Shown one piece after another: positions 5,203 to 31,455 of a stretch of 64,000 bases of DNA (position 1 is the first letter of the stretch; the number at the start of each line of letters is the position of its first letter). The position numbers and the translations under genes are program-made. The stretch is from Cliona cf. orientalis. Lineage: Eukaryota > Porifera > Demospongiae > Clionaida > Clionaidae. Below the pieces are notes generated by a model, which did not search any database, was not told the DNA's origin, and saw only the letters and a list, made by a program, of their open reading frames with translations. The DNA lies in NCBI GenBank assembly GCA_963930775.1, contig OZ005689.1:19677775-19741774 (forward strand). The letters run 5' to 3'.

Positions 5203-5801
5203 CAATTATTATGATGAACACAGACGCAGTTTCTATGATGAAGTACCAAAAACATGGAAGCATATAGATGATCAGAGTGATTCAGAATCTAATGTTTCCT
5301 CCCAATGCTCTGAACCCAATTCTGATGTAGGTAGAGATATCAGCTCGCTAGATGAACAAATCAGTTCACCAGACGAACAAATCAGCTCACCAGAAATCTT
5401 GGATATGCACATAGATCATGCAACCCTTGTTGACACAGACAGGGATGAAAATACAGTGCAGACACATGCACAAGATAGTTCAGATGAAGAGCATTTGTCC
5501 GACACCATTCCTTTATGCCGTGATTAGCCTTCTCTACCGTGTTCATTATATCTAGCGTGGAAGCTTCTATATCTTCATGATGATAATTTCATTCGTTATG
5601 TTGCCTGTCCTAAGTGTGAGAGTATGAATACCACAAGTGTATCAACCGTGTCGGAAACAAACTTGAGAGTAAGCAGTGTACATATATTGCTCAGTTCAAG
5701 AACCATCCGTTCATGCACTATTGAAACCCATGTAATGCAGTGCTGCTTCTCTCAAACATGGAAAGACAAAACTTGTTCCAAAAAAGGAATACCCTTATAG
5801 A
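5203..5801 (+). pseudogene. Transposase_21/DUF4218 (CACTA-like) transposase, 5' part
   Basis: Upstream half of a CACTA-like transposase gene. An acidic, serine-rich N-terminal stretch (about 5205-5527) is followed by YVACPKC near 5598-5620. Shifting one frame gives the segment leading to LKHGKTKLVPKKEYPYR at 5751-5801, which fits the region before the catalytic core in this family. In-frame stops and at least two frameshifts make it a pseudogene. It stops exactly at the left edge of element A and resumes in phase at 31456. The open frame beginning at 5150 borrows its first codons from the MITE. Confidence 0.7.
5794..5801. repeat. Target site duplication of element A, left copy
   Basis: CTTATAGA, identical to 31448-31455. 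It is also coding sequence of the target gene (Pro-Tyr-Arg codons). Confidence 0.85.
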
Positions 5802-5898
5802 GGCTATACCTTGATATAAGAATCACAACGTATGAATATCATTAAGTATTATTATAACAGTAACTCTATGTCTCTTTAAGTTTCTATGGTCGCTGGCT
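5802..5898 (+). repeat. Left terminal inverted repeat of element A
   Basis: About 95 bp whose reverse complement lies at 31358-31447. The match includes GTATGAATATCATTAAGTAT and TCTATGTCTCTTTAAGTT, with one short indel near base 17. It runs into the minisatellite at CTATGGTCGCTGGCTGTCTC. Confidence 0.88.
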
Positions 5899-8111
5899 GT
5901 CTCTCCCAGTCCCAGAGAGTTGCTGCATGTCTCTCACTGTCTCTCACTGTTGCTGGCTGTCTCTAACTGTCTCTCCCAGTCCTAGGTAGTTGCTGCATGT
6001 CTTTCACTGTCTCCCATGGTTGCTGGCTGTCTCTCCAAGTCCCAGAGAGTTGCTGCATGTCTCTCACTGTTTCTCACCGTTGCTGGCTGTCACTCACTGT
6101 CTCTCCCAGTCATAGGGAGTTGCTGCATGCATGCATGTCTCTCAGTGTTGCTGGCTGTCTCTCACTGTCTCTCCCAGTCCCAGGGAGTTGCTGCATGTCT
6201 CTCACAGTCTCTCCTGGTCCCAAAGAGTTACTGCATGTCTCTCACTGTCTCCCATGGTTGCTGGCTCTCTCTCACTGTCTCTCCCAGTCCCAGGAAGTTG
6301 CTGCATGTCTCTCACTGTCTCCCATTGTTGCTGGCTGTCTCTTACTGTCACCGAGTCCCGGTCCCAGCGAGTTGCTGTATGTCTCTCACTGTCTCCCATG
6401 GTTGCTGGCTGTCTCTTACTATCTCTTCCAGTCCTAGGTAGTTGCTGCATGTCTCTCACTGTCTCTCACTGTCTCTTCCAGTCCCAGGCAGTTGCTGCAT
6501 GCATGTCTCTCACTGTCTCCCATGGTTGCCTGCTGTCTCTCCCAGTCCCAGAGAGTTGCTGCATGTCTCTCATTGTTGCTGGCTGTCTCTAACTGTCTCT
6601 CCCAATCCCAGGGAGTTGCTGCATGTCTCTGACTGTCTCCCATTGTTGCTGGCTGTCTCTCACTGTCTCTCCTGGTCCCAGGGAATTGCTGTATATCTCT
6701 CACTGTCTCCCATTGTTGCTGGCTGTCTCTTACTGTCACCCAGTCCCGGTCCCAGCGAGTTGCTGTATGTCTCTCACTGTCTCCCATGGTTGCTGGCTGT
6801 CTCTTACTATCTCTTCCAGTCCTAGGTAGTTGCTGCATGTCTCTCACTGTCTCTTCCAGTCCCAGGCAGTTGCTGCATGCATGTCTCTCACTGTCTCCCA
6901 TGGTTGCCTGCTGTCTCTCCCAGTCCCAGAGAGTTGCTGCATGTCTCTCACTGTTGCTGGCTGTCTCTAACTGTCTCTCCCAATCCCAGGGAGTTGCTGC
7001 ATGTCTCTGACTGTCTCCCATTGTTGCTGGCTGTCTCTCACTGTCTCTCCTGGTCCCAGGGGAATTGCTGTATATCTCTCACTGTCTCCCATGGTTGCTG
7101 GCTGTCTCTCCCAGTCCCAGAGACTTGCTGCATGTCTCTCACTGTTGCTGACTGTCTCTCCCAGTCCCAGGGAGTTGCTGCATGTCTCTCACAGTCTCTC
7201 CTGGTCCCAGAGAGTTGCTGCATGTCTCTCACGGTCTCCCATGGTTGCTGGCTCTCTCTCACTGTCTCTCCCAGTCCCAGGAAGTTGCTGCATGTCTCTC
7301 ACTGTCTCCCATGGTTGCTGGCTGTCTCTCCCAGTCCCAGAGACTTGCTGCATGTCTCTCACTGTTGCTGACTGTCTCTCCCAGTCCCAGGGAGTTGCTG
7401 CATGTCTCTCACAGTCTCTCCTGGTCCCAGAGAGTTGCTGCATGTCTCTCACGGTCTCCCATGGTTGCTGGCTCTCTCTCACTGTCTCTCCCAGTCCCAG
7501 GAAGTTGCTGCATGTCTCTCACTGTCTCCCATTGTTGCTGGCTGTCTCTTACTGTCACCGAGTCCCGGTCCCAGCGAGTTGCTGTATGTCTCTCACTGTC
7601 TCCCATGGTTGCTGGCTGTCTCTTACTATCTCTTCCAGTCCTAGGTAGTTGCTGCATGTCTCTCACTGTCTCTTCCAGTCCCAGGCAGTTGCTGCATGTC
7701 TCTCACTGTCTCCCATGGTTGCCAGCTGTCTCTCCCAGTCCCAGAGAGTTGCTGCATGTCTCTCACTGTTGCTGGCTGTCTCTAATTGTCTCTTCCAATC
7801 CCAGGGAGTTGCTGCATGTCTCTGACTGTCTCCCATTGTTGCTGGCTGTCTCTCACTGTCTCTCCCGGTCCCAGGGAATTGCTGTATATCTCTCACTGTC
7901 TCCCATGGTTGCTGGCTGTCTCTCCCAGTCCCAGAGAGTTGCTGCATGTCTCTCTCTGTTGCTGACTGTCTCTCACTGTCTCTCCCAGTCCCAGGGAGTT
8001 GCTGCATGTCTCTCACTGTCTCCCATGGTTGCTGGCTGTCGCTCAGTCCCAGTCCCAGGGAGTGGCTGCATGTCTCTCACCGCCTCCCATTGTTGCTGGC
8101 TGTCTCTCCCA
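5886..8111 (+). repeat. Subterminal minisatellite array, left arm of element A
   Basis: About 2.2 kb of degenerate tandem repeats built from GTTGCTGCATGTCTCTCACT, GTTGCTGGCTGTCTCTC and CCAGTCCCAGGGA modules. Higher-order copies are visible, for example a 220 bp period between AGACTTGCTGCATG at 7121 and 7341, and a 380 bp period between 6348 and 6728. Because modules rarely create stops, long open frames appear in several frames and on both strands (up to 321 codons at 7182-8147). They have no start context or non-repeat sequence and are artefacts. Confidence 0.95.
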
Positions 8112-8616
8112 GATGAAGACCGTATTGATGAGAGATCTATCAACTGACAGCTTCTAAGCAAGAATATGAGACATATTTAGGCTTTACTGTAGTTACTGGT
8201 CGCTGATACCGACCGATTTAAATGGTGGGTGTGGCCTAATCGTCCGTTATGCGAGGTTGTTCACAATTGCGCATGCATGCTTGAACGGGACCAAAATAAT
8301 TGTCCGTGGATGTCTCCCACATTCGAAGTAGGCAGTAAATGCTCATGCATGCGACATACATGGGACATGCCTGTATAGTACCGCGCGCTTTAGCTTATCT
8401 TTTGGCGCCCGCGGGATCATTTAGCGGGATAATTTTCACTCAAACTGTACTTTAGTCTTGATCATCTTTCAAAGCTTCCAAGTTCGTCAGATCGAGGTCC
8501 AGCAATTTATCGGCCGCTGACACAGCTATAGCTCGTCGATCGATCATCGCGCGAGTGTTACTATAGCGCGCGAACTGCACCAATCATCACTTCGATTGAA
8601 CTACTTCATCACAATC
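8112..8616. promoter_or_regulatory. Probable 5' region of the element A transposase gene
   Basis: About 500 bp between the array and the first ATG. It contains GC-rich segments (GGCGCCCGCGGGATC near 8404) and many CG dinucleotides around 8540-8580. No clear TATA box. The assignment as promoter rests only on position. Confidence 0.35.
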
Positions 8617-10532
8617 ATGTTCTCCCTAGCCCTCACAGTGGCTCTGAGTTTGCTAGTGATCAACGCTCTTCCAGCCATCCAATTCGCTAACAGTGTGCCA
8701 ATTTCAGATAAGCACTTCAAGTATGTGAAGCATCTAATTGACACATTCACTCAGAACAAAGGTTAGCCATCAGAAAATTTATTGCTAAGCACCTACTAAA
8801 TGTACACATCTTAGAGTAGTTTTTCTTAAGCAGTATGCAAGTTAAATTATTATTATTATTTCCTGTTGCATATACCTGAATGTATAGGTCAGATTCTTAA
8901 CGGTGTCATTCATCCACCCATAACCGTTGCTCATCCATGTGACCCTGAAGACGCTAGTGTTATCTTATGGAACCCATTACTAACATATAGTTCTGTATTT
9001 TCAACGACCGGACTACAGTGTACAACATGTGCCAAGGTATGTCAATTAGCCTCCTGGAATGATGGAGGCTCTCCGTATGCTCAACCCAGGTTAATCCACG
9101 ATATTGAAAACTTTGTGTATCTTGTTAGTGCTGTGTACGTGTGTGAACTAGGCCACAGAATTCTGGCTCATGATCAAAGAATTTTGGATATGCTCCCCTG
9201 CAAAGACATGGTTCCATTCGTCCTTGTACACAAAAGTGGATTCACTAGCAACTTTGTCTGTTTATGTGCATCATTGTGTCAGAATGGCATGAATTTTCAC
9301 TCCCTAGAAGGTGTTATACATCATAGACACTGGGAATTCTTTGAATCAAGACGGAGTATATACCAAACTTTGCATAGTACCTCTACCCATGAAAAACATC
9401 ATAGTTACCCTACATTATGTTTTCCCACATTCAAAGAGTTTGGAGAGAAGTATCTACCTAGTGATGATATCATCCGAAAATGTTTTCTAGCAAAATTCCT
9501 AGAAGAAAAGGTAGCATACATAAATGACATACAATCCGTGTGTCCAGGTGAGACACTGAGTTTTGACCACACATTTAAATTTGCGTCCAACATTGGCTGT
9601 ATACGTCCAGATAAGAAATGAGCATGTCAATATGACAGTGTGTTTCTGGTATTCAGGTCAGATTGTATCCTGGCAGTTTGAGAAATCTGCTTCACAATAT
9701 CAAAAAAAGAAACCAAGAAATGAATAGCGAAGTCAAGACTATTTTTGTCGATAATTATTGCCAGTGGCGACAGAAAATCAAGGAGGTCTTTGGTCCAGAT
9801 GTAACAGTACTGTTAGATATCTTTCATGCTGTACAGCGAGTCACATGAAAAATGCCAAAAAAACACCCTTTTTACAGCATTTGCGTACAAGATTTCAGAC
9901 TTGTGTTTCGGCTGCCAGGTGATTATGGACCTATAAGAACAAAGGCAACTCCCCAGTCTCCTCAGGTACTAGAAAATATAAATTCTTTTGTACAGAGATG
10001 GAAAGACATTGTACACAATGATCGGTATGTGCTTACAAAAGATAGCATAGAAGAAATTGAGAAACTGAAAGTGCACATCCTCAAAGGTTGTTTGAGTGGA
10101 ATCACTGTTGGGGGTGGAACTAATAAGAATGAAGGATTTCATAGGTATGTGAGAACATTCTTACACAAAAGTAGGATAGGCATATTGTTAGCCTATGCGC
10201 TAATGACAACAATCATCAGTAATTTCAATAACAATGACAAGCGAAGTCGAAAGAATAGGTTAAGACCCATACGACTGACATTACAAACCCATGAGGTGGG
10301 CAAACCATTAGAAAGGATGGGAATAATGGATAACAAAGATGAAGATCTCACATGGATACAAGAACAAGATGAAGATAATGACATAGACACAATATTAATA
10401 GATAATATTCTCCGTGTGTCATTATCTCAGTTTGCCATTTGCAAGGCAATGAAGAAACAAACCAAAAAAATCTACACAGATATGGAAGTACATACCATAC
10501 ATACAAATTCTTCCGAATCAACTTCCTTGTGA
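8617..10532 (+). pseudogene. DDE-type transposase of element A, decayed
   Basis: Exon 1 (8617-8761) starts MFSLALTVALSLL and joins in phase to exon 2 at 8888 (intron GT...AG), giving a glycine codon at the join. Landmarks in order: a CTTC motif near 9025; SFDHTFKFASNIG near 9560-9600 (candidate first Asp); TIFVDNYCQWR near 9740-9770 (second Asp); LLDIFHAVQRV near 9810; KKHPFYSICVQDFRLVFR after 9855; and GTNKNEGFHR near 10120-10145 (candidate Glu). TGA stops interrupt conserved sequence at 9619-9621 and 9846-9848, and there are frameshifts near 9690 and 10520. I recognise the family from cnidarian and sponge genomes but cannot name its superfamily. It probably continues into the OTU segment. 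The hydrophobic N-terminus resembles a signal peptide but probably is not one. Confidence 0.65.
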
Positions 10533-10542
10533 GGAACATGAA

Positions 10543-10996
10543 GTGGAGGCTCGTAAAGAAAGGTTAAGAAGTAATGCATCAGCTTGGAGCTTCAGTATTG
10601 TCCCTGTGCCAGCTGATGGCAATTGTTTCTTCACTGCTGTTGCTTTGGCCTTGGTACAAGATATTGCCACCAGTAAACCCATACTAAATCGCATTGCAGG
10701 AGTTGATACTAATGGATCTATTGTAGCACTAGCAGCAAGGCTAAGAGAGTTGGTGGTTACAGAATGGCTTGGGCCAAACCGTTTAGAATACGAAAATTTT
10801 TTAACTAACCTCGACACAGAATACGAGAATGAAGCATCTGATTTCTTGGAAGATGGTCACTATGATAGTAACCTTGGAAATACAATGCCTTTAGCAATGT
10901 CAAATGCACTTGGTGTATCACTTGTCATATTAACATCACTACCATCCACACCTTGCTTTTACATCACTCCTCGCAGTGAACCACCAACACAGTTAG
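10543..10996 (+). pseudogene. OTU-like cysteine protease domain, N-terminal half
   Basis: Encodes VPADGNCFFTAVA near 10597-10635, the OTU signature with its nucleophilic cysteine, then an alpha-rich stretch and a YITPRSEPPTQ segment where OTU domains approach their histidine strand. The sequence is cut by element B at 10996/10997. The histidine half lies at 24753 onward. OTU domains cleave ubiquitin-type isopeptide bonds, but their role in transposons is unknown. It is probably the C-terminal part of the same polypeptide as 8617-10532, separated by one frameshift near 10520. Confidence 0.72.
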
Positions 10997-11474
10997 GGGT
11001 AAATCCAGGCCAAATCAACACAAAAAAATGACAACCCGCTTAGATTTCCATGAAACTTGGTACATTCATACCCCTAACAAAGTTACTAATCTACAATGAA
11101 TTTCAGTGTCATACATTGTATGGCTTCTGCATTATAGCCACATAAAAATCGGCCTTTTTGTCAAATTTTAGTGTACCCGTCACTACATAATTGATCATAA
11201 GTATTGTCTTAATCATAATTACGTTGTATAATTTATACCACTAATACCTTATTAGATGCTCTTTCAAACGATCCGCTAAACGTGAAAATCTAATTATTTT
11301 TGGGTCAAAGGTCATCGCCTGTGTTTGACCTTTGCCCTCTTCAAAAACGAATTCTTTAAATTTTTTTATTTTTTTTCCAAGTGTTCCTTAGTTCATCCTG
11401 TAGATATGGTATAATTTTGGTTTTGGGACTGCCATGGGATTAAGAGATATACAAGGTAGAGTAGCAGTTGGTAA
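10997..11474 (+). repeat. Left terminal inverted repeat of element B
   Basis: About 478 bp, the inverse of 24275-24752. An internal palindrome places GGGTCAAAGGTCAT against TTTGACCTTTGCCC near 11305-11340. No open frame. Confidence 0.9.
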
Positions 11475-11587
11475 TGTGTTTCTTATGCATCTGCAGTTGT
11501 CCTTGCACTAACAATATTATGCTCCAACATGTTATAGTTTAAATGTACAAATGATCTGGGTAAACATACTACTCTGGAATATGTGTG

Positions 11588-13518
11588 TTAAAAAATATCA
11601 GTTTTGGCTGTGAGTTTTGCCGTGGCAGCTTTATTTTCTCTCTGTGTTAAGGTATAAACACGGCCAGTTGTAGTCCTGGGATTGACTTTAGTGAGGAGGT
11701 CTGTTGTTGATACAACCAAGATATCAGGGACAGAAGGATACTTGAATGATCGGGAAGGTCCATGGGGATGGAGAAAAGTCACTTTTACTTCACCATTTTC
11801 TGCATCAACCTCAAGTACACATGCTAACCACCACTCTCCATCATAGATACATGTCACAAATCCAGAAATTTCATCGATTTCGAGCTCACTGTCTTGTTTG
11901 GCTACCTTTTCTTCCTTTGAGGCTGTTGAAAAAGAATATGCTCGGACTTTCAGAGCATCTCTGGAGAAGGGAACAAATGAATGTAATTTACGTGTTCCTG
12001 GGATTGTGCGAGAGTTCTCAAATCGTTTCTCTAAGTGATGTTTAACTTTCTGGTACTCTTCTGTGCTGCAATACTGGAATACAATACCTGGTATGTTTTC
12101 AGAAGCCCATTCATATAGCTGAAGAGGAGTCATGATTTGCTGTTCATACGGTCTCTGAAGGCTGGCTCTTGCAGCAAGGCACTTCACTGTGCCACCTACT
12201 CCGTCACTAGCACCCTTACCGTGAGAAGTAGCAGAAAAATGCCACTCTGCTTGGATCCCGAAGTCAGCTTCATGATTGCACAAGTTGATAAAATTTTTAC
12301 GGTTCTTATACTGTGAAGCTGCTCCGTCTGAGAAATACACAATTTTCTTTGGAGAGGAAGGAAGCACTCTTTTCAAAAAGGTGATCAAGCTTTTCTGGAA
12401 AAGGTATACAGCAACAGTGTCATGGTGTAAACAGTCAGATGTGACAACGTAGCTGAGATGACGTTCTTCTCCAGAGTGCCTGTAATAGATGACAAATGGA
12501 TGAACCATTGCTTGAGCATTATTCCAGTGAAATCCCTGGGCTGCATCCTGGAGAATAAATGAATAATTCTCTGAGAAGTCAGCAACAACCAATAGCTCTC
12601 CTGGTTTCAGACTAGATTTTCGTTCACTGAAGAAGGAAGCTTGTTGTGTTGCAATGAAAGAGTGAGGAATCAATACTCTCAACTTCTCACAAAATGCTTC
12701 AACAAATTCATCAGATCTCTTGGTTACTATCTCGAGTGAGGATCTATCAACAGCTTCCCACTGCCTGTAGGTAACATTGTCAATCATGTTGTCTTCTAGA
12801 AGAGCCACAAGGGATGTCTTCAGTGTATCAATACCAGGGCAAGCTTTACGGGTACCTAAATAGCATGTTGGCAAAGCAGGATTGCAAATGACTTGTGCTA
12901 TGCAGTGATGGTATGTTTTCAGGGTACATGTATCATCCAATTCCACTAAGTCAGTGAGTTTCACGCCAAGCATCATTAGCTTCACGTTTTGATGAAATGT
13001 GCATACACAAACAGAGTGAGTGCCACTGGCACCAGCCAAGATACAGTGTTTGGGGCGAAGCTCAGCAAACTTGGAGAACCCTATTGATTCGTTAGGGTAT
13101 TTATCTTTGAACATACGATAGAGCTCCCTCAAATTGCAAAGAACTAACCTTTTTTGCACATGCACTCGTCCTTCCTCTTTCCTTACCGAAACAAAGTCTT
13201 TCTTTCCTGGCATTATTCTACTTGTCTCATCACTTACATAAAAATCACTAACCAAATCCACTGTTCCTTGAGGTAGGGTACGGCCAGGTTTAGGATCAGG
13301 TGTTGACAGAATTCCTTTCTCCCTGACTAGCTGTTTTGCTTTCCTTGCCATGAAGTTTGATGCACCAAACTCATCTTCAACCCTTCTAATAGACCAGCTC
13401 TTTGGTAAAACTGTCAGAATCTGGATCTTCTCACTTCTTTCGGCAGTGGAGTATTTTTCTTTCAATTGGGTAATAATCTCAACCTCATCATTTGTTTGCT
13501 CTGAATGCACATCACCTG
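11588..13518 (-). pseudogene. Putative transposase of element B, C-terminal part (~640 aa), separated from its N-terminus by element C
   Basis: A long clean frame reading leftward. Landmarks: ARKAKQLVREKGILSTPDPK (about residues 51-70), MPGKKDFVSV, GFSKFAELRPKHCILAGASG, SVCVCTFHQNVKLM, VVADFSENYSFILQDAAQG (candidate first Asp), IVYFSDGAASQYKNRKNF (candidate second Asp), GKGASDGVGGTVK, and a C-terminal beta-rich module (GFVTCIYDGEWWLACVL) resembling a Tudor/SH3-like fold. I know near-identical proteins from cnidarian and arthropod genomes, usually unannotated. The spacing and D motifs suggest an RNase H-like DDE enzyme, but this is inference. The ATG at 13508-13510 is not the true start, because the frame runs upstream to the C insertion at 13519. 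The N-terminal part lies at 23570-23954. Confidence 0.72.
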
Positions 13519-13526
13519 TGATAGCC
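13519..13526. repeat. Target site duplication of element C, left copy
   Basis: TGATAGCC, identical to 23562-23569. Extending leftward gives CTGTGATAGCC against CTCTGATAGCC, so an 11-bp duplication with one change is also possible. Confidence 0.7.
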
Positions 13527-13739
13527 GTACAGTACCGCAGCTGTTATCAAAAAGTCCACACCATTGGTCGGCGTAATCACATGACTTACCTTGCGCGCGC
13601 CTCGTACATGGGCCGGCCATGGCGGGGCGGTTCTCAATTCAAAGGGGTGTGGCGCGAGTATGGTGGCCAAGTAGTCAAGAGTATAATATAGTAGTACCTG
13701 TAGTATCATGAGTATAGAGAAAAGACCAATGAAAGACTT

Positions 13740-15275
13740 AAGATCGAGGGACGTATGAGTGTCTTGGGTGTGCTACTAGGTTAAGGAAGAGTGGTAGAGA
13801 AAGAAGGGGGATCTCCTATAAACAACGGACATCATGATGGCCAAAGTTCAAACATGGCTTACCGACAAACCCTGGAGACTATTACTAGGTCAAGAAGAGA
13901 GGTAGAGAGGAGATTTAAGAACCGAGGGACGTGTGAGCGTATTGGGTGGGCTACTAGGTTAAGAAAGAGTGGTAGAAAAAGAAGACTAGAGGGAGCATTG
14001 AAGAGGGACTGTTGTGCGAGCGTATTGGGTGGGCTACTAGGTTAAGGAAGAGTGGTAGAAAAAGAAGACTAGAGGGAGCATTGAAGAGGGACTGTTGTGC
14101 GAGCGTATTGGGTGGGCTACTAGGTTAAGGAAGAGTGGTATACGTAGAAAAAGAAGACTGGAGGGAGCATTGAAGAGGGACTATCGTGGGAGCGTATTGG
14201 GTGGGCTACTAGGTTTAATAAGGAAGAGTGGTAGAAAAAGAAGACTGGAGGGAGCATTGAAGAGGGACTGTCGTGGGAGCGTATCAAGTTGGGTGGGCTA
14301 CTAGACTAGGTTAAGGAAGAGTGGTAGAAAAAGAAGACTGGAGGGAGCATTGAAGAGGGACTGTCGTGGGAGCGTATTGGGTGGGCTACTAGGTTAAGGA
14401 AGAGTGGTAGAAGAAGAAGACTGGAGGGAGCATCGAAGAGGGACTGTCGTGGGAGCGTATTGAGTGGGCTACTAGGTTAAGGAAGAGACTAGAGGGAGCA
14501 TCGAAGAGGGACTGTCGTGGGAGCGTATTGGGTGGGCCACTAGGTTAAGGAAGAGTGGTAGAAGAAGAAGACTGGAGGGAGCATCGAAGAGGGACTGTCG
14601 TGGGAGCGTATTGGGTGGGCCACTAGGTTAAGGAAGAGTGGTAGAAGAAGAAGACTGGAGGGAGCATCGAAGAGGGACTGTCGTGGGAGCGTATTGGGTG
14701 GGCTACTAGGTTAAGGAAGAGTGGTAGAAGAAGAAGACTGGAGGGAGCATCGAAGAGGGACTGTCGTGGGAGCGTATTGGGTGGGCCACTAGGTTAAGGA
14801 AGAGTGGTAGAAGAAGAAGACTGGAGGGAGCATCGAAGAGGGACTGTCGTGGGAGCGTATTGGGTGGGCTACTAGGTTAAGGAAGAGTGGTAGAAGAAGA
14901 AGACTAGAGGGAGCATCGAAGAGGGACTGTCGTGGGAGCGTATTGGGTGGGCTACTAGGTTAAGGAAGAGTGGTAGAAAAAGAAGACTGGGGGGAGCATC
15001 GAAGAGGGACTGTCGTGGGAGCGTATTGGGTGGGCTACTAGGTTAAGGAAGAGACTAGAGGGAGCATCGAAGAGGGACTGTCGTGGGAGCGTATTGGGTG
15101 GGCTACTAGGTTAAGGAAGAGTGGTAGAAAAAGAAGACTAGAGGGATGTGTGAATGTTTTTGGGTGGGCTACTAGGTTAAGGATGAGTGGCAAGAAAAGA
15201 TTAGAGCATGTAAGGATGTATTGGGTGGGCTACTAGGTTAAGGAAGAGCGATAGAAAATAAAAGATTTAAGATCC
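13740..15275 (+). repeat. Subterminal minisatellite, left side of element C
   Basis: Tandem repeats with an 83 bp unit containing GAGGGAGCATCGAAGAGGGA, GGTGGGCTACTAGGTTAAGG and GTGGTAGAAGAAGA. A 68 bp variant lacks the last block (for example 14424 to 14492). About 17-18 copies, most alike in the centre and degenerate at both edges. No gene. Confidence 0.95.
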
Positions 15276-15453
15276 GAGGGATGTGTTATATAGCTATAAA
15301 GCTGAGAGAGGGTTAATGATGCTAGATCTTATGGTGGAACATGAGAGATTTTCAATTCACAGGAATAACTAGCTTATGGTATAAAATGTAAGGAACATTA
15401 TTATGGTGAAGTTCAAGAAGAACAAGCGATGAAAGTATGATACAATTGAGTGT

Positions 15454-19059: not shown

Positions 19060-19407
19060 TCCTGGATCCAGTACAGTGGACGTGGCCCGCTAGCGCTATG
19101 GAAACGGTTGCGCACGCGCAATGCCCGTCACGATCTGCGCATGCGTGAAGCTCTGTTTCCAAGGCTACTGTTTCAGTGCTCGGTGAATCTATGGTTGTGC
19201 AACAGTCGACAGCAAAGGCTATCAGTATCGCGCGTTACGCTTGAGCAAAGAAGGACAGCTGATTTACATTTCAAGGTATAGTTTATCTACACTGCGTTAA
19301 ATATTATTTATAGCGCTTTATTTAATCCGCATGGCCCCAGGTAGGACGGTCTAATGGCGTCAAAGTTTTTTATGCCGTTCGATTCTTAAAATTAATTTTT
19401 CGTATAG
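19060..19407. promoter_or_regulatory. Divergent promoter region of element C
   Basis: About 350 bp between two start codons pointing away from each other (19059 minus, 19408 plus). It holds GCATGCGTGAAG, CGCACGCGCAATG and other CG-rich words. A shared promoter is inferred from geometry only. Confidence 0.5.
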
Positions 19408-22317
19408 ATGCCTACTACAATTGAAGCGGACTCTAATCGGCTCTATCGCGTTAAGGGGGATGGAAATCATAGGGAACCAGTCTCAAACTTCTCACTTCAG
19501 ATCCAGGGACTAGTGAATGTTGCACCAGATGCTGGAGGTTCTGGACTCTTATTGTTAGTGAAAAGATACCCTGACGACTCTGAAAAATATGTGCGTTCAA
19601 ATTAAGCTTTTAGATAAGCTGTGCCTATAATTAATAGTATTTCTATGCAAGTCCGTCACACTGAACATTCTAGACATAGCCAGCAGAATGACTGATAGCT
19701 ACTAAGTCAGTCATAATCATTATTATTTCAGGGTGGTGTTCTGTCCCATGTCGGAGGTTTCTGGTGCAGTGAAACAGTTCACAATCAGCATCAACCAGCA
19801 GTTCCCTGGCGGTACACTCTTCTTGCTATTGACGGATCAAGAATTCAAGAAATTTTTGATGGAGATGTCAAATGAGATGCTGGAGGAAAACTCACCTAGT
19901 TGTCGGAAGCATGCAGCTCGTATAGTTGGTAGAAACCAACTGGAAGGAGGAGAGCCATTTTGGATCTTTTCTGAAGCCGTTCAAATAGCAGGAAGTGGCA
20001 CACTGATTGAAAATGATGACGAATCACCCTTCCTTTGGCTTCAGCGTCTTGTTAATGGAAGCAATATTCTTTTGCAAGAGTCACTGAGGTGTGCTATCTC
20101 CACTCCTCTTGACCACGGTCAAGGTATTACCGATCTGTGTTTGGCCGTTAGAGCTTTCATGCCGGAAAATTTCATTGCTGCGATGGCTACAATGAGCGCT
20201 GTAGTTATGGGATCAAACTACTCCAGCATTCTGAAGATGTTTGGATGTTGTGGTGTTCCAATGCTTACTGGACCTCCAGGATCATGTAAATCAGAGGCAA
20301 CCAAATGTGCTCTTTCACCCTTTGGCGCACACGAATCTCACACTTGCAACAACCAGACAACTCCTTATCTTTTCAAGGCAGCGAGCAAAACAACAGTCCC
20401 AATATATGTTGATGATGTTAGTGAGAAGTCAGCTGATGCATGGGAGGAGCTCTTCATTGACGCATATAATGGCTCTGGAAGAGGCACTCGCTTACATGGC
20501 ATAGAAACCTTTCAGACCCTGCCAATTGTTTCAGCAAACTGGTGCATTGGAACTGACCGACAAAGGGCGCACACTCGTTCCATCCACATTGCCTTTCAGC
20601 ACCATGAAGATGAGCCTGAGGCCAATCTGCTTTGGTTCAAAAGCGAGCAGTTGCTTCTAAATCAGTTGGAGAGCTCATCAAACTGAGCAAGAGATTTGAG
20701 GGGGCTGATACGAAGGATATCATCAACCGCGACATCTGTCCTTCTGTGATCCGTATCCTTAGTCAGTTCAATGCCCCAGCACGTTTCACGACAACAATGT
20801 CAATCTTTATGCATTTCTTCCTTGAGGTTAGTATATTCCTTAGCTTCATAATGCTTGTTGTTCCTAAAATGGTTACACATTTTCCTCTTCCCATGGCAAA
20901 CTTTGAATATGGTGGAATTCTAGCTATATTCCATGACATGATAGATAAATTTAATGCTGTCATGCACATAATATTATAGCATTGCATTGATGTAACCATA
21001 ATCATGATATTGTGTACACAGTTTTCAAAATTGGCTGGAGATGTTTTGCTCCCATCCGGTCTATCAAAGCCCCTGTTGACTCAGGAGGAATGTTGGGAGT
21101 TTTTTGCTGAGAATATGGCTCCTTTTACTTCACCGTCATCTTCAGCTTTAACAAGGAGTGATTCCTATGGTGGAATCATGCAGGCAAAGCAGGCCAGAGG
21201 AGTGATTGCACATTTTTTTACTTCTCTAGCTATGTCCCTTGTTCATGTTGAGACACACAAGGTCGGTATACAATATTATAGACATAAGTTAGGAATAATA
21301 TATTAGGAGTGTTTTGAAGAGAAAATGTCGTGATCATCATTACATGCAATGTCATACATTACTATTAATAGGCACTGCAAATTGTGGCTGTAGATGTGGC
21401 TACTGCTTGTCATTTGGGAATCTGTGTAGCTGTGCGAGCAGCAGAAGCAGTTCCCTTGCTTAACAGCAGTGAGGATGGAGCTCCATTTAGCTGCTCACAA
21501 CTAGAATCAGCATTACGCATTTCTGGCTTGGGAAAACGTTCCAAGCAGCGTTTTCTCAAGTCGTCATGCACTGATAGCATCATCAAGCGATCAAGGAGGG
21601 GAGCTGGTGGTAATACGGTTGCCTATCACTGTTTTATAATACAGCAGAGTGCAATTGATCCAGAGACAGTTGAAGAACTCCGAGAAGGTACAATATTATT
21701 ATAATAATGTATACCAGTATGAAATAGTGATAATTGTATACAGCACTCAAAGCTAGTCATACTGATCATCAGCCATTACTGCAGCAAAGCTCTGAAATTC
21801 AAGGTCGCATTGAGCAAGAATACATGCATTGTATGATTGTCTTGTACTGATTGATCATACGATTTCAGGTGGTGGTACTGATGCTGGTTCACTGACTGAA
21901 CAGGCAACTGTAGGTAAGACACAATGTCATGCATATGCCCTATATGTGTTTCTTAAATTGCTTGCTAACTATTAGCTACTATAATAATTATTATAGGCTC
22001 TGAGAGTGCTCTAACAGCAATAGATGCTGGTGGTAAGACTGCTGCAACTCCATTTAATAATGTTGAAGGTAGCTAGCTATAATATGCACTTAATAAAATT
22101 GATCTTTCAGTTGTGTATTGGTCTATTAGACTCAGTAATTACTGATGATGAAATTGGACTCGGTTCACAAATATCCACTGACCCCATTACCCTCTCAACT
22201 CCAACAGATGAAGGTATTACTATAGATCTGTAGCTAATTATACTTGGCTATAATCATTTATTATTATTTTTTATAGATCTACAAACTCCAGCAAAAAGAG
22301 GACGATTAAGTCAATGA
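19408..22317 (+). pseudogene. SF3-like P-loop ATPase gene of element C
   Basis: Exon 1 (from 19408) encodes a short beta-rich module (PVSNFSLQIQGLVNV). Exon 2 (about 19733-20830) contains VSGAVKQFTISINQQFPGG, LAVRAFMPENFIAAMATMSA, Walker A GPPGSCKS (20270-20293), Walker B-like YVDDVSEK (about 20406) and a sensor-like LPIVSANW. This resembles DUF927/D5-type superfamily-3 helicases. A frameshift near 20625-20640 moves the frame to LVQKRAVASKSVGELIK. Further exons at 21024-21261 and 21372-21690 are followed by microexons to DLQTPAKRGRLSQ and a stop at 22315-22317. That tail could be a nuclear localisation signal. The exon 1 splice phase is unresolved. Homologous in layout to the ATPase at 25769-30278. 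Probable role: DNA unwinding during transposition; this is inference. Confidence 0.68.
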
Positions 22318-22539
22318 CATGGCATGTGCATATATGATGCACATCATGCATGCATGCATGATCAGCCAGGTTGACACTGCTGAAACTATGCCATAAAGGA
22401 ACTGATATCATATTATGCACCTCTCAGTCATTATTATCGTGTCTCACCTTCATCTTAAACTTCTTCTGTAGCTAGTATACATGTATGATTTTATTGCAAC
22501 TATAGTATGCAAAATTAATAATAATAAATGCTGCTTGTT

Positions 22540-23435
22540 CTAAGTATTGTGTTGCCCGTGTTGCCATAATAGCTGTGTGGTGTTGCTCTGCATTGCAATA
22601 TCTACGTATTGCATGCCATAATAGATGTGTGGTGTTGCCTGTGTTCCCATACAGATGTATTGCATTGCCTGTACTTGTGTTGCCCTAGTTAATTATTGTG
22701 TTGCTCCGTGTTGCCATATAGAAGTATTGTGTTGCCCGTGTTGCCCTAGCTAAGTATTGTGTTGCTCTGTGTTGCCCCGTGTTGTCATATAGAAGTATTG
22801 TGTTGCCCCGTGTTGCCATATAGAAGTATTGTGTTGCCCCGTGTTGCCATATATAGAAGTATTGTGTTGCCCGTGTTGCCCTAGCTAAGTATTGTGTTGC
22901 TCTGTGTTGCCCCGTGTTGTCATATAGAAGTATTGTGTTGCCCCGTGTTGCCCCGTGTTGCCATATAGAAGTATTGTGTTGCCCGTGTTGCCCTAGCTAA
23001 GTATTGTGTTGCTCTGTGTTGCCCCGTGTTGTCATATAGAAGTATTGTGTTGCCCCGTGTTGCCATATAGAAGTATTGTGTTGCCCGTGTTGCCCTAGCT
23101 AAGTATTGTGTTGCTCTGTGTTGCCCCGTGTTGTCATATAGAAGTATTGTGTTGCCCGTGTTGCCCTAGCTAATTATTGCGTTGCCCCATGTTGCCATAT
23201 AGAAGTATTGTGTTGCCCTAGCTAATTATTGTGTTGCCATATAGAAGTATTGTGTTTCCCGTGTTGCCCTAGCTAATTATTGTGTTGCCCCGTGTTGCCA
23301 TATAGAAGTATTGTGTTGCCCGTGTTGCCCAAGCTAAGTATTGTGTTGCTCTGTGTTGCCATGCAGAAGTATTGTGTTGCTCATATTGCCATAGAGAAGT
23401 ATTGCGTTGCCCATGTTGTCATAGCTAAGTCTGGT
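22540..23435 (+). repeat. Subterminal minisatellite, right side of element C
   Basis: About 30-31 bp units alternating TATTGTGTTGCCCGTGTTG + CCCTAGCTAAG with TATTGTGTTGCCCCGTGTTG + CCATATAGAAG. Roughly 25-30 copies. Not related in sequence to the array at the other end of C. Stops about 125 bp before the element end. Confidence 0.95.
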
Positions 23436-23569
23436 TTTGCCTAGATATTTGTCACGTGACCTGACCAATCAGATCCTTACTTTGATAGGTAGTCATATGA
23501 CCCTATTTTGGGGCTGTTGACCAATAGCGTTGACTCTTTGATAGGAGCTGCGGGATACCTCTGATAGCC

Positions 23570-23954
23570 TTTTGCATCATTGAGGTAATACTTTCTGTTT
23601 TGAATACTTTTTACTCTGTAGTTTCCGCTTCGTAATAGGTGTCTCTCCAACAGTATCCAAATATTGGTTGACCAAGCGTAGTGACTCACAGGTGTCAACT
23701 TGTAGCATTTCGATAGGAGGTGATGCAGTTCTGTCAGATTCTGAATTGCTATCTGATGGTGGTTGTGGAGGTGAATATTTGGCCACCTTTTTCCTGCAGT
23801 CATCACAGATCTTATCTCCTGGCATTATTGATGGAAATAGCTCACACATCTTCTTTGTAACTTGCCTGAGCTGGCTTTTCTTTCTAATGAAATGGCTGGG
23901 TCTGTTGAAGGGATTGCAGCAAATATTTTTCCACCGAGGTGGAGAATGAGCCAT
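23570..23954 (-). pseudogene. Putative transposase of element B, N-terminal part
   Basis: Starts MAHSPPRWKNICCNPFN at 23954 (an ATG at 24059 is also in frame). It encodes a CC...CDDCRKKVAKY cysteine pattern, probably zinc-binding, then a serine-rich linker and GETPITKRKLQSKKYSKQK. I know this module as the N-terminus of proteins whose C-terminus matches 11588-13518. The frame ends in TGA shortly before the C insertion. Reading across the removed insertion needs one single-base frameshift near 23590 to enter the frame used downstream. DNA or protein binding is likely but unproven. Confidence 0.65.
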
Positions 23955-24274
23955 GGTTGACCTTGCTAATAAGAAATCACTAGTAGTAGATCGAGACTCT
24001 CCTGATATCTTTGGTCTTGCAATAAGCTTAAAACTGATAGCTATAGTAGCTACTGTCAAGTTGAGAAGATGATAACAAATAGTGCTGTGAAGGTCCCATG
24101 GAACCCAATCAGGTTAAAATGACAGACTAATCAAATTTGTACAAGTACTACATGCACCTGCTTCCAGGAAAAGTACCACACTCTTACTGAATGTATTTAA
24201 CTACAATATGTTGAAAGAGTACATGTATTTATAGCAACTGCTCAGGCAAGGACAGGTATAGATATGAAAAATCC

Positions 24275-24752
24275 ACTACCAGCTGCTACTCTGCCTTGTA
24301 TATCTCTTAATCCCATGGCAGTCCCAAAACCAAAATTATACCATATCTACAGGATGAACTAAGGAACACTTGGAAAAAAAATTAAAAATTTAAAGAATCC
24401 GTTTTTTAAGAGGGCAAAGGTCAAACTCAGACAATGACCTTTGACCCAAACATAATTAGATTTTCACGTTTAGCGGATCGTTTGAAAGAGCATCTAATAA
24501 GGTGTTAGTGGTATAAATTATATAATGTAATTATGATCAAGACAATACTTATGATCAATTATGTAGTGATGGGTACATTAAAATTTGACAAAAAGGCAGA
24601 TTTTTATGTGGCTGTAATGCAGAAGCCATACAATGTATGACACTGAAATTCATTGTAGATTAGTAACTTAGTTAGGGGTATGAATGTACCAAGTTTCGTG
24701 GAAATCTAAAGGGGTCGTCATTTTTTTGTGTTGATTTGTCCTGGATTTACCC
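24275..24752 (-). repeat. Right terminal inverted repeat of element B
   Basis: Inverse partner of 10997-11474, ending CTGGATTTACCC, followed by TTAG. The open frame starting at 24728 borrows its first codons from this repeat. Confidence 0.9.
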
Positions 24753-25191
24753 TTAGTGCTCTCTACCTTGCATACACATCCATTGGACCAGGGCACTATG
24801 ATGGATTGGTCGTCAAAGAAAAAATAGGCAACAAAGTGTACCCTCTAATAAAATTAAATGCAGATGTGGAGTTAATTCACACGACAAGGAGAGCATGTGC
24901 TCATCAAGTGGGAAGGCATTCATCATGCCGATGTCTTTCGAATGGTCAACCTTGCTCTGCTCTGTGTGGCTGTAAAGGGTGCGACAATCCAAATGGAAAA
25001 CGACCAATTACAATGAAGGGAACCTCACAAGTGGCAACACGACAGATAAATATTCTGCAGATTTGAAGAGGGGAGTATGGTCTGAGTTTGAAAACATTGT
25101 GCTTAAAGAACGTATCGAGGGCAGAAAGGCCTACAGCGATGGCCAAGAAGCGACCAGAGAGCGTAATTCTCGTTCTCCAGCCTACTTCTAG
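24753..25191 (+). pseudogene. OTU protease C-terminal half plus CXC cysteine cluster (element A)
   Basis: Directly after element B the frame encodes LSALYLAYTSIGPGHYDGL; the GPGHYD motif carries the catalytic histidine expected downstream of the cysteine half at 10543-10996. It is followed by a cysteine cluster CRCLSNGQPCSALCGCKGC (about 24915-24975) with NPNGKR, similar to tesmin/TSO1-type CXC modules that bind DNA. A frame change near 25010-25060 leads to KRGVWSEFENIVLKERI, which ends by 25191. The phase relative to the left half is off by one base, so a small indel accompanies the break. Confidence 0.7.
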
Positions 25192-25768: not shown

Positions 25769-28700
25769 TTATAATATACCTTTCTCAATGCTGGCCAAGA
25801 GTTCAGGTGGGATGAATGATGTCCATATCACCACACTCCTGGAGCTGATTGAATTTACACCCCTCTTCACAAAACGGTCTGCCTTAGTTGGCAACAAAAA
25901 ATCTTTATTCACGTAACGCCCAATCTTGGCGACCTTGATGTGTTTGGTAATGATACCCTCTTCAAAATAGAATTATTGGGCCAATGCAGAGAGACGAAGA
26001 GCAATACATGGTTCACTTTTGTACTTTATTCCAGAACGAACAGATCTTAAAAGCTATATGTATAAAGGCATTGCACATGAAGAGCAGATATAAAGCACAG
26101 CAGTAAGGCTAAATAGATACCTCAAACTTTTCTTTTTTCTTCATCCATTGCACAAGATTGTGTAAAAATTCTATGATGACTTGTGGCATCTCAGGTTGTG
26201 CATCTGATTCAGACTGGGCATTACTACTGCTCCCGGCAGACAAGATAGAAGGGATGGTGTTCCCAAGAAATTCAACAACATCATCAACATCAATTTCAAT
26301 ATCATCTTCACTCACATAAGATCTGGCCTCTTTAATCAACTGCAAATATGGAATGTTCAATAATAATGAAGTAACTATAAAAACATTGCATACTTGCACC
26401 AATTAGATTAAGAAGAGTATGTAACTCCTGTATGCTAGTATTGTGCCTACATATTGAAGTGGTTGCATCATAGTAGGTCTTTAGATGACCGGGAGGGGGG
26501 GGATAAGTGGAGCAGTTGGGAGGTATGAATCTCATAGTGGAAATCATCCCACCATGCAGCAATAATAATTAATGTATAGCATGAAATTTTCAGGGGAGAA
26601 AACCTTTAAGACACAAATTTACAACCACCCACAAATTAATATTATGTGAAATGCTCACTTCCTATCAATCTGCAAAAGTTTCCCATGCACTACATATACA
26701 GTACAGCCTGTACTGTGTGGTTAAACCATAAAAATTCTAGTAGACCAGCATGGAAAACGCTATGATCCAAAGTCCAGGCTTGGATCATCCACTCATAACA
26801 CATACCTCGTCCACAAAGTATAGAAGAATGGAATATCCTGTAATTATTCTTGGTTCAGCACCAACAAGTCTAGGATGGACCTTGGTCAACAGAACACCAT
26901 TAATTGCACCTACTCCAGTGGTTCTCAACTTGTCACCAATGGAAATGGCCCATCCAAGAGATGCAGAGGCTTTCTTTTTGAGCGCCGCAAGCTCCAAAAA
27001 CGACTCGCATTCAGCTGCAGACTTTGCTCCAATCTTAGGTACACTGAACGGTATAACTACCATTCTTGATAGATCTCTGATAAAACAAAGCATATAAATA
27101 CATGAAAAACAAACATACCGCACTCGCACTTATTATTCAAAAATTCTAACAGTCCAAACAGCAAGTTTAAGCATTTTGTTTCCTTCCTAATTCATTGTGC
27201 ATCCTGAATTTGAAACTTTTCATCCAACCGAATGGCCACACAGTATGCTACATGACAGGAGCTCGAGACAATTCATAGTTCAACTTCAATAATTATAATG
27301 GCTTCCAAATTCATCGACGAGCATGGCTACCACACCTTGGAGAAAATCTAAGAGGGAAAGGTGAATCAAAGCCCTGACAATCATTTTTCGATTGCTGTCA
27401 CAGAGAGAGAGCCTACTGACACTAAAGCTGATAATGGTAAACCTAGGCTATACTGTAGTGTCCCAGGTAAGCACCCATTGGCGCTTAAATTTAACTCGTA
27501 ATTTTGGCCTGCATGGGTGCTTACCCGGGATCAAACTTCCATACGTTTGTATACAAACTGCTACAGTGGCCCCATGAAATGCAGTACATGCAGTCTATAG
27601 TTTGGCTTTGGAAAAATTCTGAAGGCTGCTCTGCCACGCACGTTTACAATTAGCAATGTACCCTCTACACTACAGCTGCTAATATTACTACTAGGGCTGC
27701 AATAACTTACTTATCATTGGCTGGCAGAGCATTTGCTGTAATGATGCAAGTACTTCTCGGCCAGATCGCTCCCGTCTGTAAATTAGCAACAATTCCACCT
27801 TTATAAATATCATTGCAAAGATCAAGCAGTTCAGCTGGTACTGTAGCATTTTCCTTCTTATCTTTTAGATCACGAGGGTCATCTATACCAAATGGCATGG
27901 ATGAAAGGGAACATCTATCAAGAAACCACTTTTGGGAGGTATTCTTTTTGTAGAAACCTTTCTTGTGCATGCCCACAAGTGCCAGTGCTGCCTTACATGC
28001 TTGAGACTTCCCGGTTTGACTGGAGCCATATAAGAATGGGACTGGGCATCCTTCATAGAACTCCAATATGGATTCATAGTGCAAGCACATAACAGATGAA
28101 GCTAGTGACATCACAGCTGGTATAAAGTTATGCTTGAAGCATTTTTTAATCAAAAGCAGCAGAGGCTTGACATACATGGTTTAGAGTGGGAAATGGATGT
28201 GAGGAGACAGTGAGGCACAGTTAATGTCAGATGAATTTCCAGCATTTTGCATTGCTATATGGGAGAGCCACACATATTTTGATACACTCTTTTGCAGTAA
28301 AGCACCGACGCTGTTGAGGTACATGGTTGGTGACAATATCCAAGTCTGCTTGTCTTCCTGTAATCCAATGGTTGATGAGCCTACTTTTCTATTGTTTTCG
28401 TCTTCAAATTCGAATTTGTTTTTCAAATAGTGATAGAATTCGGTTACTTCATTATCATGGAGAGATAGTGTTAGCCCCCCACCAGAGCTTCTATTTATCT
28501 GTTCTATGAAATCTGCCTTTTTATGGACTGAACTTGTAGTAAAATAGCATTCCCTGAATAAAAAATAGAAGTGGTTATTATTTGCAAAGAGGTATACGAA
28601 CTAAAATTATAATAATATATTATATAATTGTAACAGCTGGTCATGGTCTGTACATTTATCAACCTTAATGCTCATTTTTGCGTTTAGCCCAGAGGGACGT

Positions 28701-30278
28701 GCCCCCCCCCCCCCCCCAATTTTTGGGCCAGATAAAATCCTGAGTCATTATGTCAGAACAGCTACAGGACTAAAACAAATGCAACAGCATGAGTTACATG
28801 TATAGTACAGGATGGGTTCCTACACTGTACGTATAGAGCCCATCCTTGTAGAGTATATTAACCACCAACATTTCACGTTTGACTATGAATGGAGAGTAAT
28901 TTTGAAAAAAAAATACAGTCCCTGCAGTTAAAATATACAGTCGATTGTTACATTTAAAATATGTGCTTGCTAATCTTTCCTGGTAACTCCATATTCTAGT
29001 GCACCATATAGCTTACTGTAGCTACTCCCCACAAGTCCCCAGGTCCTCTCTCCCAGCTGTTTAATATGCGGCACACAAAAACTGAGTGGTATGCAACAGG
29101 AAATTGGCGTTGACATCCTCTAAGGAACTGTTATAATAGCTAACCCTGGTGCTGGTGTATTTAGCTTGTCACTAGACTAGACACTGCTCCTACTAGGATA
29201 TTCTGCACCATGCACATAAGGCTGTATTATAATGCCTCCTCCAGGTTAATGTGGTGTTGAAATAACATTCCACAACCAGACAGACAATTTCTGCTTAAAT
29301 ATAGTTCAAAAATTGCTTGGCCCAGACATAGTGGCAGCATAAACAGGAGTATAAGCTTAGTGGTGGCAGCTTGCACAGGCAATATAGCACTGGGTGCTAT
29401 TGGTGTGGTCACAGTTTGTAGAGTAAACCTGTTTAGTGGTAATTAATTAGCACCACCCAAGCCACAAAACCACTGGGTAATCTTAAAAATCCCTTAGCTG
29501 CCTTTGCAGCTTGTTGTGTGCTGCTTTTCTTTAAAAATGAATTATTCTACACCACATTTTGTGGTCAGCATAGACAGTATAGAGTATGTGTATGCGTGCT
29601 CTGTGTCAGTAGCTACCAGGGAATACTGGTATACCCATCTCTTAGGTAACATACTACAACCCTACAACCAGGATTACAGCTGCATATCTACTTTCTTGAT
29701 TCAATCTATTCATGGTTGCTATAGTATAAATATCAAGGAAAGTATGAGGATTACAGTATGCTTCATTCCCAGTATGTTGGGAGCTTTGGCCCAGAATTGT
29801 ATAGCTGGTTTAGACTTAACCTTGTACCCAGAGCCTTGACTCTAAGGGCCTGAGCCTAAACAAGGCTAGTTTGGACTTACTACTACTGTTAGACCACATG
29901 CAGACATTCTTCTCGGGCATCAGTGTAGCAATGCCAGTACTTCGCCTATACGTACTTGGTTTTCTCGGAGAGATGTGTTGACGTTATTTCAGCAACATAT
30001 CCAGTTTCTGCACCAGCCTCCACAAAATACTTTAGCTTTATAGAAAAGTTGCTCCTTGAAACAAATTTTCCACCCTTCAGGAGCCCAATTTCGTTCGAGG
30101 TCACGTGAAAACGATCATGTTCCTGGAAAACAAGATATCATACACATTTTGTAGCTAAATTCGGTTCGTATTTTACGGATTCGGCTACCATTACAGATTC
30201 ATTTTCCTCGGTTTGCGACTTGATCACAGACGTGTCTCGACTAGCACTCTGTTCATGAGACTCAAATTCGGCCATCAT
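25769..30278 (-). pseudogene. SF3-like P-loop ATPase gene of element A, decayed
   Basis: Read leftward. The start near 30278 is MMAEFESHEQSASRD. The second exon (about 30130-29966) encodes GGKFVSRSNFSIKLKYFVEA, parallel to exon 1 of the element C ATPase. After an intron-like gap with no recognisable middle exon comes an exon from about 28551 to 27711, with NEVTEFYHYLKNKFEF, then Walker A GSSQTGKS (28027-28004), Walker B-like FGIDDPRD and CIITANALPANDK before a GTAAGT donor. Further exons: 27076-26816 (VVIPFSVPKIGAKS), 26339-26121, and about 25960-25769 ending ...LASIEKGIL. A TAA at 28181-28183 interrupts conserved sequence just before the ATPase core. The middle exon seen in the C copy (the IxINQQFPGG region) seems lost. 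Confidence 0.62.
28560..29960. other. Non-coding interior of element A
   Basis: About 1.4 kb with no supported exon on either strand. Contains a C-run (about 28700-28716) and scattered AT-rich DNA. If the ATPase gene were intact its second main exon should lie here. Confidence 0.4.
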
Positions 30279-30444
30279 TATTGGCACTGGTCAGTGTACA
30301 CACGTATACTGGCAAATATATAATATTTATATACGTGATAGAACACGTGGCAGATCTGGTGCGCACTAACTGGAAGATTTGGTGTGCACTAACTGGAAAC
30401 AATGGGTAGACGGCCAGAGACTGGGAGTACACTGGAGTACGGGG

Positions 30445-31374
30445 AGCCTGGTGACAGCCAGCAACCTTTGGAGACAAAGAGAGACATGCAGCAACTCCCT
30501 GGGACTGGGAGAGACTGAGGGACAGCCAGCAACAGTGAGAGACATGCAGCAACTCCGTGGGACTGGGAGAGACAGTGAGAGAGAGCCAGCAACCATGGGA
30601 GACAGTGAGAGACAGCCAGCAACAGTGAGAGACATGCAGCAACTCCCTGGAACTGGGAGAGACAGTGAGAGACAGCCAGCAACAGTGAGAGACATGCAGC
30701 AACTCCCTAGGACTGGGAGAGACAGTGAGAGAGCCAGCAACCATGGGAGACAGTGAGAGACATGCAGCAACTCCCTGGGACTGGGAGGGACAGTTAGAGA
30801 CAGCCAGCAACACTGAGAGACAGTGAGAGACGTGCAGCAACTCCCTGGGACTGGAAGAGATAGTGAGAGAGAGCCAGCAACCATGGGAGACAGTGAGAGA
30901 CATGCAGCAACTCCCTGGGACTGGGAGAGACAGTTAGAGACAGCCAGCAACACTGAGAGACAGTGAGAGACATGCAGCAACTCTCTGGGACTGGGAGAGA
31001 CAGTGAGAGAGCCAGCAACCATGGGAGACAGTGAGAGATATGCAGCAACTCCCTGGGACTGGGAGAGACAGTTAGAGACAGCCAGCAACACTGAGAGACA
31101 GTGAGAGACATGCAGCAACTCCATGGGACTGGGAGAGACAGCCAGCAACAGTGAGAGACATGCAGCAACTCCCTGGACTGTAAGAGACCGTGAGAGACAT
31201 GCAGCATCTCCCTGGGACTGGGAGAGACAGTTAGAGACAGCCAGCAACACTGAGAGACAGTGAGAGACATGCAGCAACTCTCTGGGACTGGGAGAGACAG
31301 TGGGAGACAACCAGCAACAGTGAGAGACATGCAGCAACTCCCTGGGACTGGGAGAGACAGCCAGCGACCATAGC
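30445..31374 (-). repeat. Subterminal minisatellite array, right arm of element A
   Basis: About 930 bp of the same modules as 5886-8111 in reverse complement (GAGAGACATGCAGCAACTCC, CTGGGACTGGGAGAGACAG, GCCAGCAACCATGGGAGAC). Long open frames on both strands are repeat artefacts. Confidence 0.95.
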
Positions 31375-31447
31375 AACTTAAAGAGACATAGAGTTACTGT
31401 TATAATAATACTTAATGATATTCATACATTGATATCAAGGTATAGCC
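31358..31447 (-). repeat. Right terminal inverted repeat of element A
   Basis: Inverse partner of 5802-5898, ending ATATCAAGGTATAGCC. Confidence 0.88.
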
Positions 31448-31455
31448 CTTATAGA
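31448..31455. repeat. Target site duplication of element A, right copy
   Basis: CTTATAGA, exact match to 5794-5801. Confidence 0.85.

Follow-up and report, generated by a model that had tools for sequence, protein, structure and literature searches.

A 64,000-nucleotide stretch of the sponge Cliona cf. orientalis (assembly GCA_963930775.1, contig OZ005689.1, positions 19,677,775 to 19,741,774; hereafter the window, on contig C1) carries a transposable element, element A, at window positions 5802-31447. A belongs to a genuine DNA transposon family with further copies in the same genome. We consider it likely that A is a decayed member of a family, probably of animals, of DNA transposons with terminal inverted repeats (TIRs), which makes 8-bp target-site duplications (TSDs) and brings together an IS256/MuDR-like transposase core, OTU and CXC domains and a recurrent Cch/Rep-like ATPase.

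Element A is 25,646 bp long, and its termini, GGCTATACCTTGATAT and ATATCAAGGTATAGCC, are exact and in inverted orientation. In the alignment of the two ends, the left TIR (GGCTATACCTTGATAT..., 5802-5920, + strand) pairs with the right TIR (31337-31447, - strand) over 119 versus 111 bp, with three mismatches and one 8-bp gap; beyond these repeats both sides continue as inverted satellite arrays. Exact copies of the TSD CTTATAGA lie at 5794-5801 and 31448-31455 (no strand assigned), confirming the inverted ends and the 8-bp repeat given in the preliminary description of this DNA. The end 16-mer occurs exactly three times in the 216.8-Mb genome searched (149 contigs), and two of these occurrences are A's own termini. 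When A and one copy of the repeat are excised in silico, the flanks rejoin in frame (..GKTKLVPKKEYPYRSVNKSLK..) within a Transposase_21 gene, as had been claimed. The target gene is itself decayed, given that its left part stays open for only 22 codons up to a stop; its continuation (tnp2) occupies 31456-32410 (+), with a PF02992 match in 31739-32410 (E 5.1e-5) that stays below the curated cut-off. A genome search with the 105-aa peptide of the joined flanks gave 44 matches. Setting aside A's own flanks, which account for two, 38 of the remaining 42 (31-44% identity) run through the junction with no large insertion; a few contain internal stops.

A search with the first 107 bases of A returned 16 matches: A's two ends, 11 ends of six short elements and three unpaired ends (at C3, C2:2.29M and C13), for which no partner was found within the stretch read. 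The twelfth end of the short elements, on C17, was located by pattern. These six elements (on C11, C9, C4, C1, C14 and C17; 1,160 to 2,733 bp) each have two inverted ends GGCTATA[C/T]CTTC and an exact 8-bp repeat of their own, namely GATAGCTA, AATATAAC, CATGTTTT, TACTGGTT, GAAGTTCC and CAAAATTT. The preliminary description had proposed to seek a second copy bearing these ends beside another 8-bp repeat; six such copies were found in this way, and its view of A as a bona fide DNA transposon is supported both by these copies and by three related families with inverted ends (see below). TIRs with a TSD of fixed length thus recur at A, at the six short copies and in the related families, which places A among the TIR transposons. 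The matching ends of A were read from one sequence assembly only; in principle they could match by chance or result from a false join in the assembly. Given the six short elements that share these ends and have exact repeats of their own, as well as uninterrupted paralogs of the target gene, the probability of this is negligible. We rejected it on the basis of the other copies with their own 8-bp repeats.

Satellite arrays are a prominent part of these ends. Tandem-repeat rows define a left subterminal array at 5886-8112 (+), with periods of about 30, 60, 70, 130 and 190 bp, and a right subterminal array at 30479-31371 (-) that is inverted relative to the left one. The short copies consist of tandem repeat over 85-94% of their sequence; in those on C14 and C17, the two examined in detail, arrays of ~70-bp units run in opposite orientation on the two sides. 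The family may thus represent a new case of satellite arrays that act as working transposon ends and that also spread satellite DNA through the genome. Long, repetitive inverted ends, and short copies made mainly of repeats, recall Foldback elements and Drosophila Galileo, the inverted ends of which are likewise long and internally repetitive. However, Galileo belongs to the P superfamily and has a THAP domain, and it is not known to have an OTU domain, a CXC domain or a helicase. Its transposase is reported to have multiple binding sites in the long ends (PMC3688188).

The transposase gene of A is broken. Its first exon, encoding a hydrophobic leader, was placed at 8617-8761 (+) from the sequence and, from 8638 on, by alignment to the relative P0040; the exon borders are putative. 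An N-terminal Cys/His region and the DDE transposase domain follow by alignment at 8887-10532 (+), with in-frame stops and frameshifts. The first part of an OTU-like domain (10540-10996, +; PF10275 E 2.3e-4, below the curated cut-off) is cut by a nested transposon, B, beyond which come the OTU remainder (GPGHYD), the CXC domain and then a C-terminal remnant in another frame (24753-25104, +; TCR E 0.0052 and MSL2-CXC E 0.006, both below cut-off). Because its genes carry stops and frameshifts, A itself is probably not an autonomous copy. The transposase, OTU and CXC domains listed in the preliminary description are all present, but in relatives they form a single fused protein, not separate genes. 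Named relatives come from the sponge Dysidea avara and the corals Oculina patagonica and Desmophyllum pertusum. A hydrophobic, signal-peptide-like start exceeds a value of 1.9 in 17 of 43 transposase proteins, and in 11 of the 17 with at least 980 aa (M-starting proteins of at least 830 aa among P0001-P0069; 13-residue Kyte-Doolittle window near the start), while interior stretches pass the same threshold in 0-17%. Such a leader, seen in A at 8617-8761 and among P0001-P0069, is odd for a nuclear enzyme.

The transposase alignment conserves the residues D269, D341 and E469 and a DxxH motif. For the relative P0001, the predicted catalytic fold, which includes a helical insertion, matches the IS256 element ISCth4 (Foldseek E 1.2e-7), ahead of Mos1 (1.3e-3), the P element (2.8e-2) and Hermes (4.5e-2); the VIA list for the transposase holds no hAT or P row, an absence that we do not count as evidence. 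By this model and the conserved residues, the protein is a DDE/D transposase of the RNase H fold. A Pfam scan of 42 transposase members matched 14 families at E up to 0.05; Transposase_mut was matched by a single member (E 0.04), and neither a PHD finger nor the KDZ model was among the 14. KDZ/Zisupton elements share cysteine-cluster domains and an 8-bp TSD with our family; the CXC domain of the latter is, however, of the MSL2/TCR type, and KDZ/Zisupton was rejected, the Pfam matches of the 42 members including no KDZ domain.

These features raise the question of whether the family simply belongs to one of the named superfamilies MuDR/MULE and Rehavkus, which the present combination would then only extend. 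We give this close to an even chance. IS256 is the prokaryotic relative of MuDR (PMC10045372), so the ISCth4 match speaks for it, and the predicted fold with its helical insertion, the DxxH motif and a TSD within the 8-11 bp range of Mutator-like elements (MULEs; PMC6446971) are all shared. Rehavkus, too, is MuDR-related and carries terminal satellite repeats, those of Rehavkus-1_TC lying in its inverted termini (PMC6446971, PMC10218199), and satellite repeats are equally present at the termini of the A family. On the other hand, the A family is without a clear Pfam MULE match, as the single Transposase_mut hit indicates, and has an OTU and CXC tail and a separate helicase-like ATPase gene. 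Rehavkus is listed with a 9-bp TSD, a PHD finger and one ORF (open reading frame) and as occurring in Arthropoda and Annelida (PMC6446971), whereas the A family has an 8-bp TSD, OTU and CXC domains, a second gene for an ATPase and relatives in sponges and corals. In our reading, the family is a foldback-like offshoot of the IS256/MuDR group that has diverged and carries a helicase-like ATPase of its own.

The ATPase gene of A lies at 25772-30137 on the - strand, as delimited by conserved blocks with putative exon borders: 29949-30137, 28184-28600, 27710-28180 (which holds the Walker A motif GSSQTGKS), 26788-27129 and 25772-25972. An in-frame stop occupies 28181-28183 (-). A's own ATPase piece has weak PF00910 and DUF927 matches, the latter at only 0.034; DUF927 is matched by 28 of 49 ATPase members (E up to 0.05), and the relative P0107 barely exceeds the Pfam DUF927 cut-off (22.9 versus 22.6 bits). 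In the fold comparison, which is based on a model of only ~290 residues, the best matches are the SCCmec Cch and SaPI Rep helicases. With an AAA+ core, a Walker A motif, DUF927-type sequence and a predicted fold close to that of Cch, the protein fits the DUF927/Cch-Rep class. The earlier label of 'SF3-like' finds some support in the weak PF00910 match and in vaccinia D5, which follows Cch in Foldseek, but DUF927/Cch-Rep helicases are the better match. The DUF927 protein of a Staphylococcus island has been described as a bona fide helicase, and SaPI Rep as a self-loading initiator (PMC5862659, PMC7581432). The likeness to these proteins has limits: identity is ~15%, the host is a eukaryote, the carrier is a DDE transposon and the protein is known here from sequence and a model. 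Accessory helicases also occur in the DDE transposons AcademH, with a TSD of 9-10 bp, and KolobokH (PMC10045372, PMC9587614); that of KolobokH is a RecQ, whereas the ATPase of the A family is of the DUF927/Cch-Rep AAA+ class.

The transposase and the ATPase recur together. We compiled 17 transposase and 35 ATPase loci, both lower bounds that include some weak or short matches, and scored a pair when an ATPase of this class, that of B excluded, lay within 20 kb of a transposase. Seven of the 17 transposase loci (A, C1:27.09M, C1:34.09M, C2:11.76M, C18, C11 and C12) are paired, compared with 0.11 pairs expected by chance; the six other than A are 35-46% identical to it. Six of the seven, all except C11, were read for ends. 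At four loci, A included, a single pair of inverted ends with an 8-bp repeat encloses the two genes. The other three delimited elements are C1:27089064-27107544 (exact repeat CGTCTGTT), C12:3213590-3228989 (exact repeat GCCATATC) and C1:34077142-34103990 (ACCAAGCT/ACCAAGCC, 7/8, from a by-eye reading of the flanks), so the three related families comprise two with an exact and one with a 7/8 repeat. Inverted satellite arrays are present at all five paired loci with ends (A, C1:27M, C12, C1:34M and C18), and the units are unlike between four families.

Several observations weigh against uniting these loci in one two-gene family. Since one of the four delimiting repeats is a by-eye and inexact one, our confidence is slightly reduced; an exact-repeat scan of C1:34M returned only array-internal matches and one weak pair, not the pair read by eye. 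At C18 both ends and arrays are present, but the sequence outside the ends shows no matching repeat, and its 7/8 pair GTAGCTAC/GTACCTAC is taken as part of the TIR because it falls in sequence common to C12. C12 and C18 are moreover one family that the linkage count treats as two, so the seven paired loci are not all independent, and at C2:11.75M neither ends nor arrays were found within the stretches read. A hexamer enriched in all four compared arrays was sought and none was found. A's own domains all fall below the Pfam cut-offs, and the ATPase structure is that of a relative, with five models that vary (predicted local distance difference test, pLDDT, 59-77) and unreliable residues 1-14. 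Finally, no ATPase is listed within 20 kb of ten of the 17 transposase loci, and 28 of the 35 ATPase loci, B's included, are unpaired with such a transposase (very few of either set were read further). Gene order also varies: the genes converge in A and C1:27M and lie in tandem in C12, and in C1:34M the ATPase comes first.

The unpaired ATPases and the inconstant gene order, together with the related ATPase that B holds beside a different transposase-like gene, would suit an ATPase gene that travels as a passenger or belongs to a separate element, in which case the transposase/OTU/CXC protein and the ends alone would define the transposon. Against the excess of paired loci over the chance expectation, and the four loci at which one pair of inverted ends and an 8-bp repeat enclose both genes, we regard this as improbable. 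Three further ATPase copies, at C6:7170801-7171703, C1:22206303-22207205 and C6:58206-59048, share 99-100% identity over 281-301 aa and have no match to an A-type transposase near them; they may be carried by a recently moving element of another kind.

A replication-type ATPase, as found in viruses and mobile islands, and the length of A could also point to a virus-derived or Polinton-like self-synthesising element. This is very unlikely. No capsid, polymerase B or integrase is among the Pfam matches of the 15 ORFs scanned inside A, and the full set of 20 scanned ORFs (15 in A; not every ORF) gave no Polinton polymerase B, packaging ATPase or retroviral-type integrase. A scan of viral contigs with two peptide patterns gave three pattern matches and no confirmed transposase relative, and the TSD is 8 bp, as against 6 bp in Polintons (PMC10045372). 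We rejected such an origin on the Pfam scan of ORFs and the viral-contig pattern scan.

For the two-gene transposon that we favour, a mechanism can be sketched. The pairing of ends and staggered cutting of the target are characteristic of the IS256/MuDR class. The transposase would pair both ends by binding repeated sites, for which the satellite arrays and TIRs would serve as platforms, and would then cut the element out and join it at target cuts staggered by 8 bp. The CXC domain might assist DNA binding, and the OTU domain could strip ubiquitin either from the transposase, protecting it from degradation, or from host factors that act in repair or silencing. The ATPase may be a ring helicase, which would unwind the excised element, replicate it or else remodel the transpososome. 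The usual picture of an animal DNA transposon is a cut-and-paste element with one or two genes that depends on the host for DNA synthesis. If the partnership is real, an IS256/MuDR-like OTU transposase and an ATPase of the island-replication class would amount to a transposon equipped with a motor of its own for replication or remodelling. More speculatively, and in our view with rather low probability, the family could be a self-replicating animal DDE transposon, in which the satellite arrays are iteron-like and the element's own Cch/Rep-type initiator helicase opens the excised element for copying before or during reinsertion; transposition by cut-and-paste would then be coupled, in animals, to a replication initiator of the bacterial mobile-island type in a single system.

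OTU proteases are also present in Helentrons (PMC6431247). The literature matches listed, with Repbase itself and subscription papers outside the scope, include no element that joins an OTU/CXC transposase to a DUF927 ATPase, in agreement with the preliminary description, which knew of no described counterpart. Because of this partial coverage, we call the combination new only provisionally.

The nested transposon B (10997-24752, 13,756 bp, no strand assigned; defined by end alignment) has the TIR GGGTAAATCCAGG and 4-bp TTAG repeats on both sides, and both of its ends are found again at C16:4159891-4163583. Its insertion site is the OTU region of A, into which it jumped later. Without B and one TTAG, A measures 11,886 bp, which bears out the ~11.9 kb given earlier; the term 'giant' applies to A as it stands, but only through the nested transposon. 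B's transposase-like ORF (11588-13543, 651 aa) is unlike A's and has 1301 homologs among the candidates scored; B may be an element of the Sola type. A CxC4-like piece at 16855-17238 matches PF18717 below cut-off (1.7e-4). B's own ATPase, at 19706-20683, is related to that of A, so that two unlike transposons of one genome carry the same ATPase class. Two further tandem arrays within B, at 13930-15146 and 22677-23441, have periods of 83 bp and about 30/71/102 bp. Elsewhere in the window, pieces of a piggyBac-type transposase occupy 35857-37622 (DDE_Tnp_1_7, 7.5e-64 and 2.9e-6).

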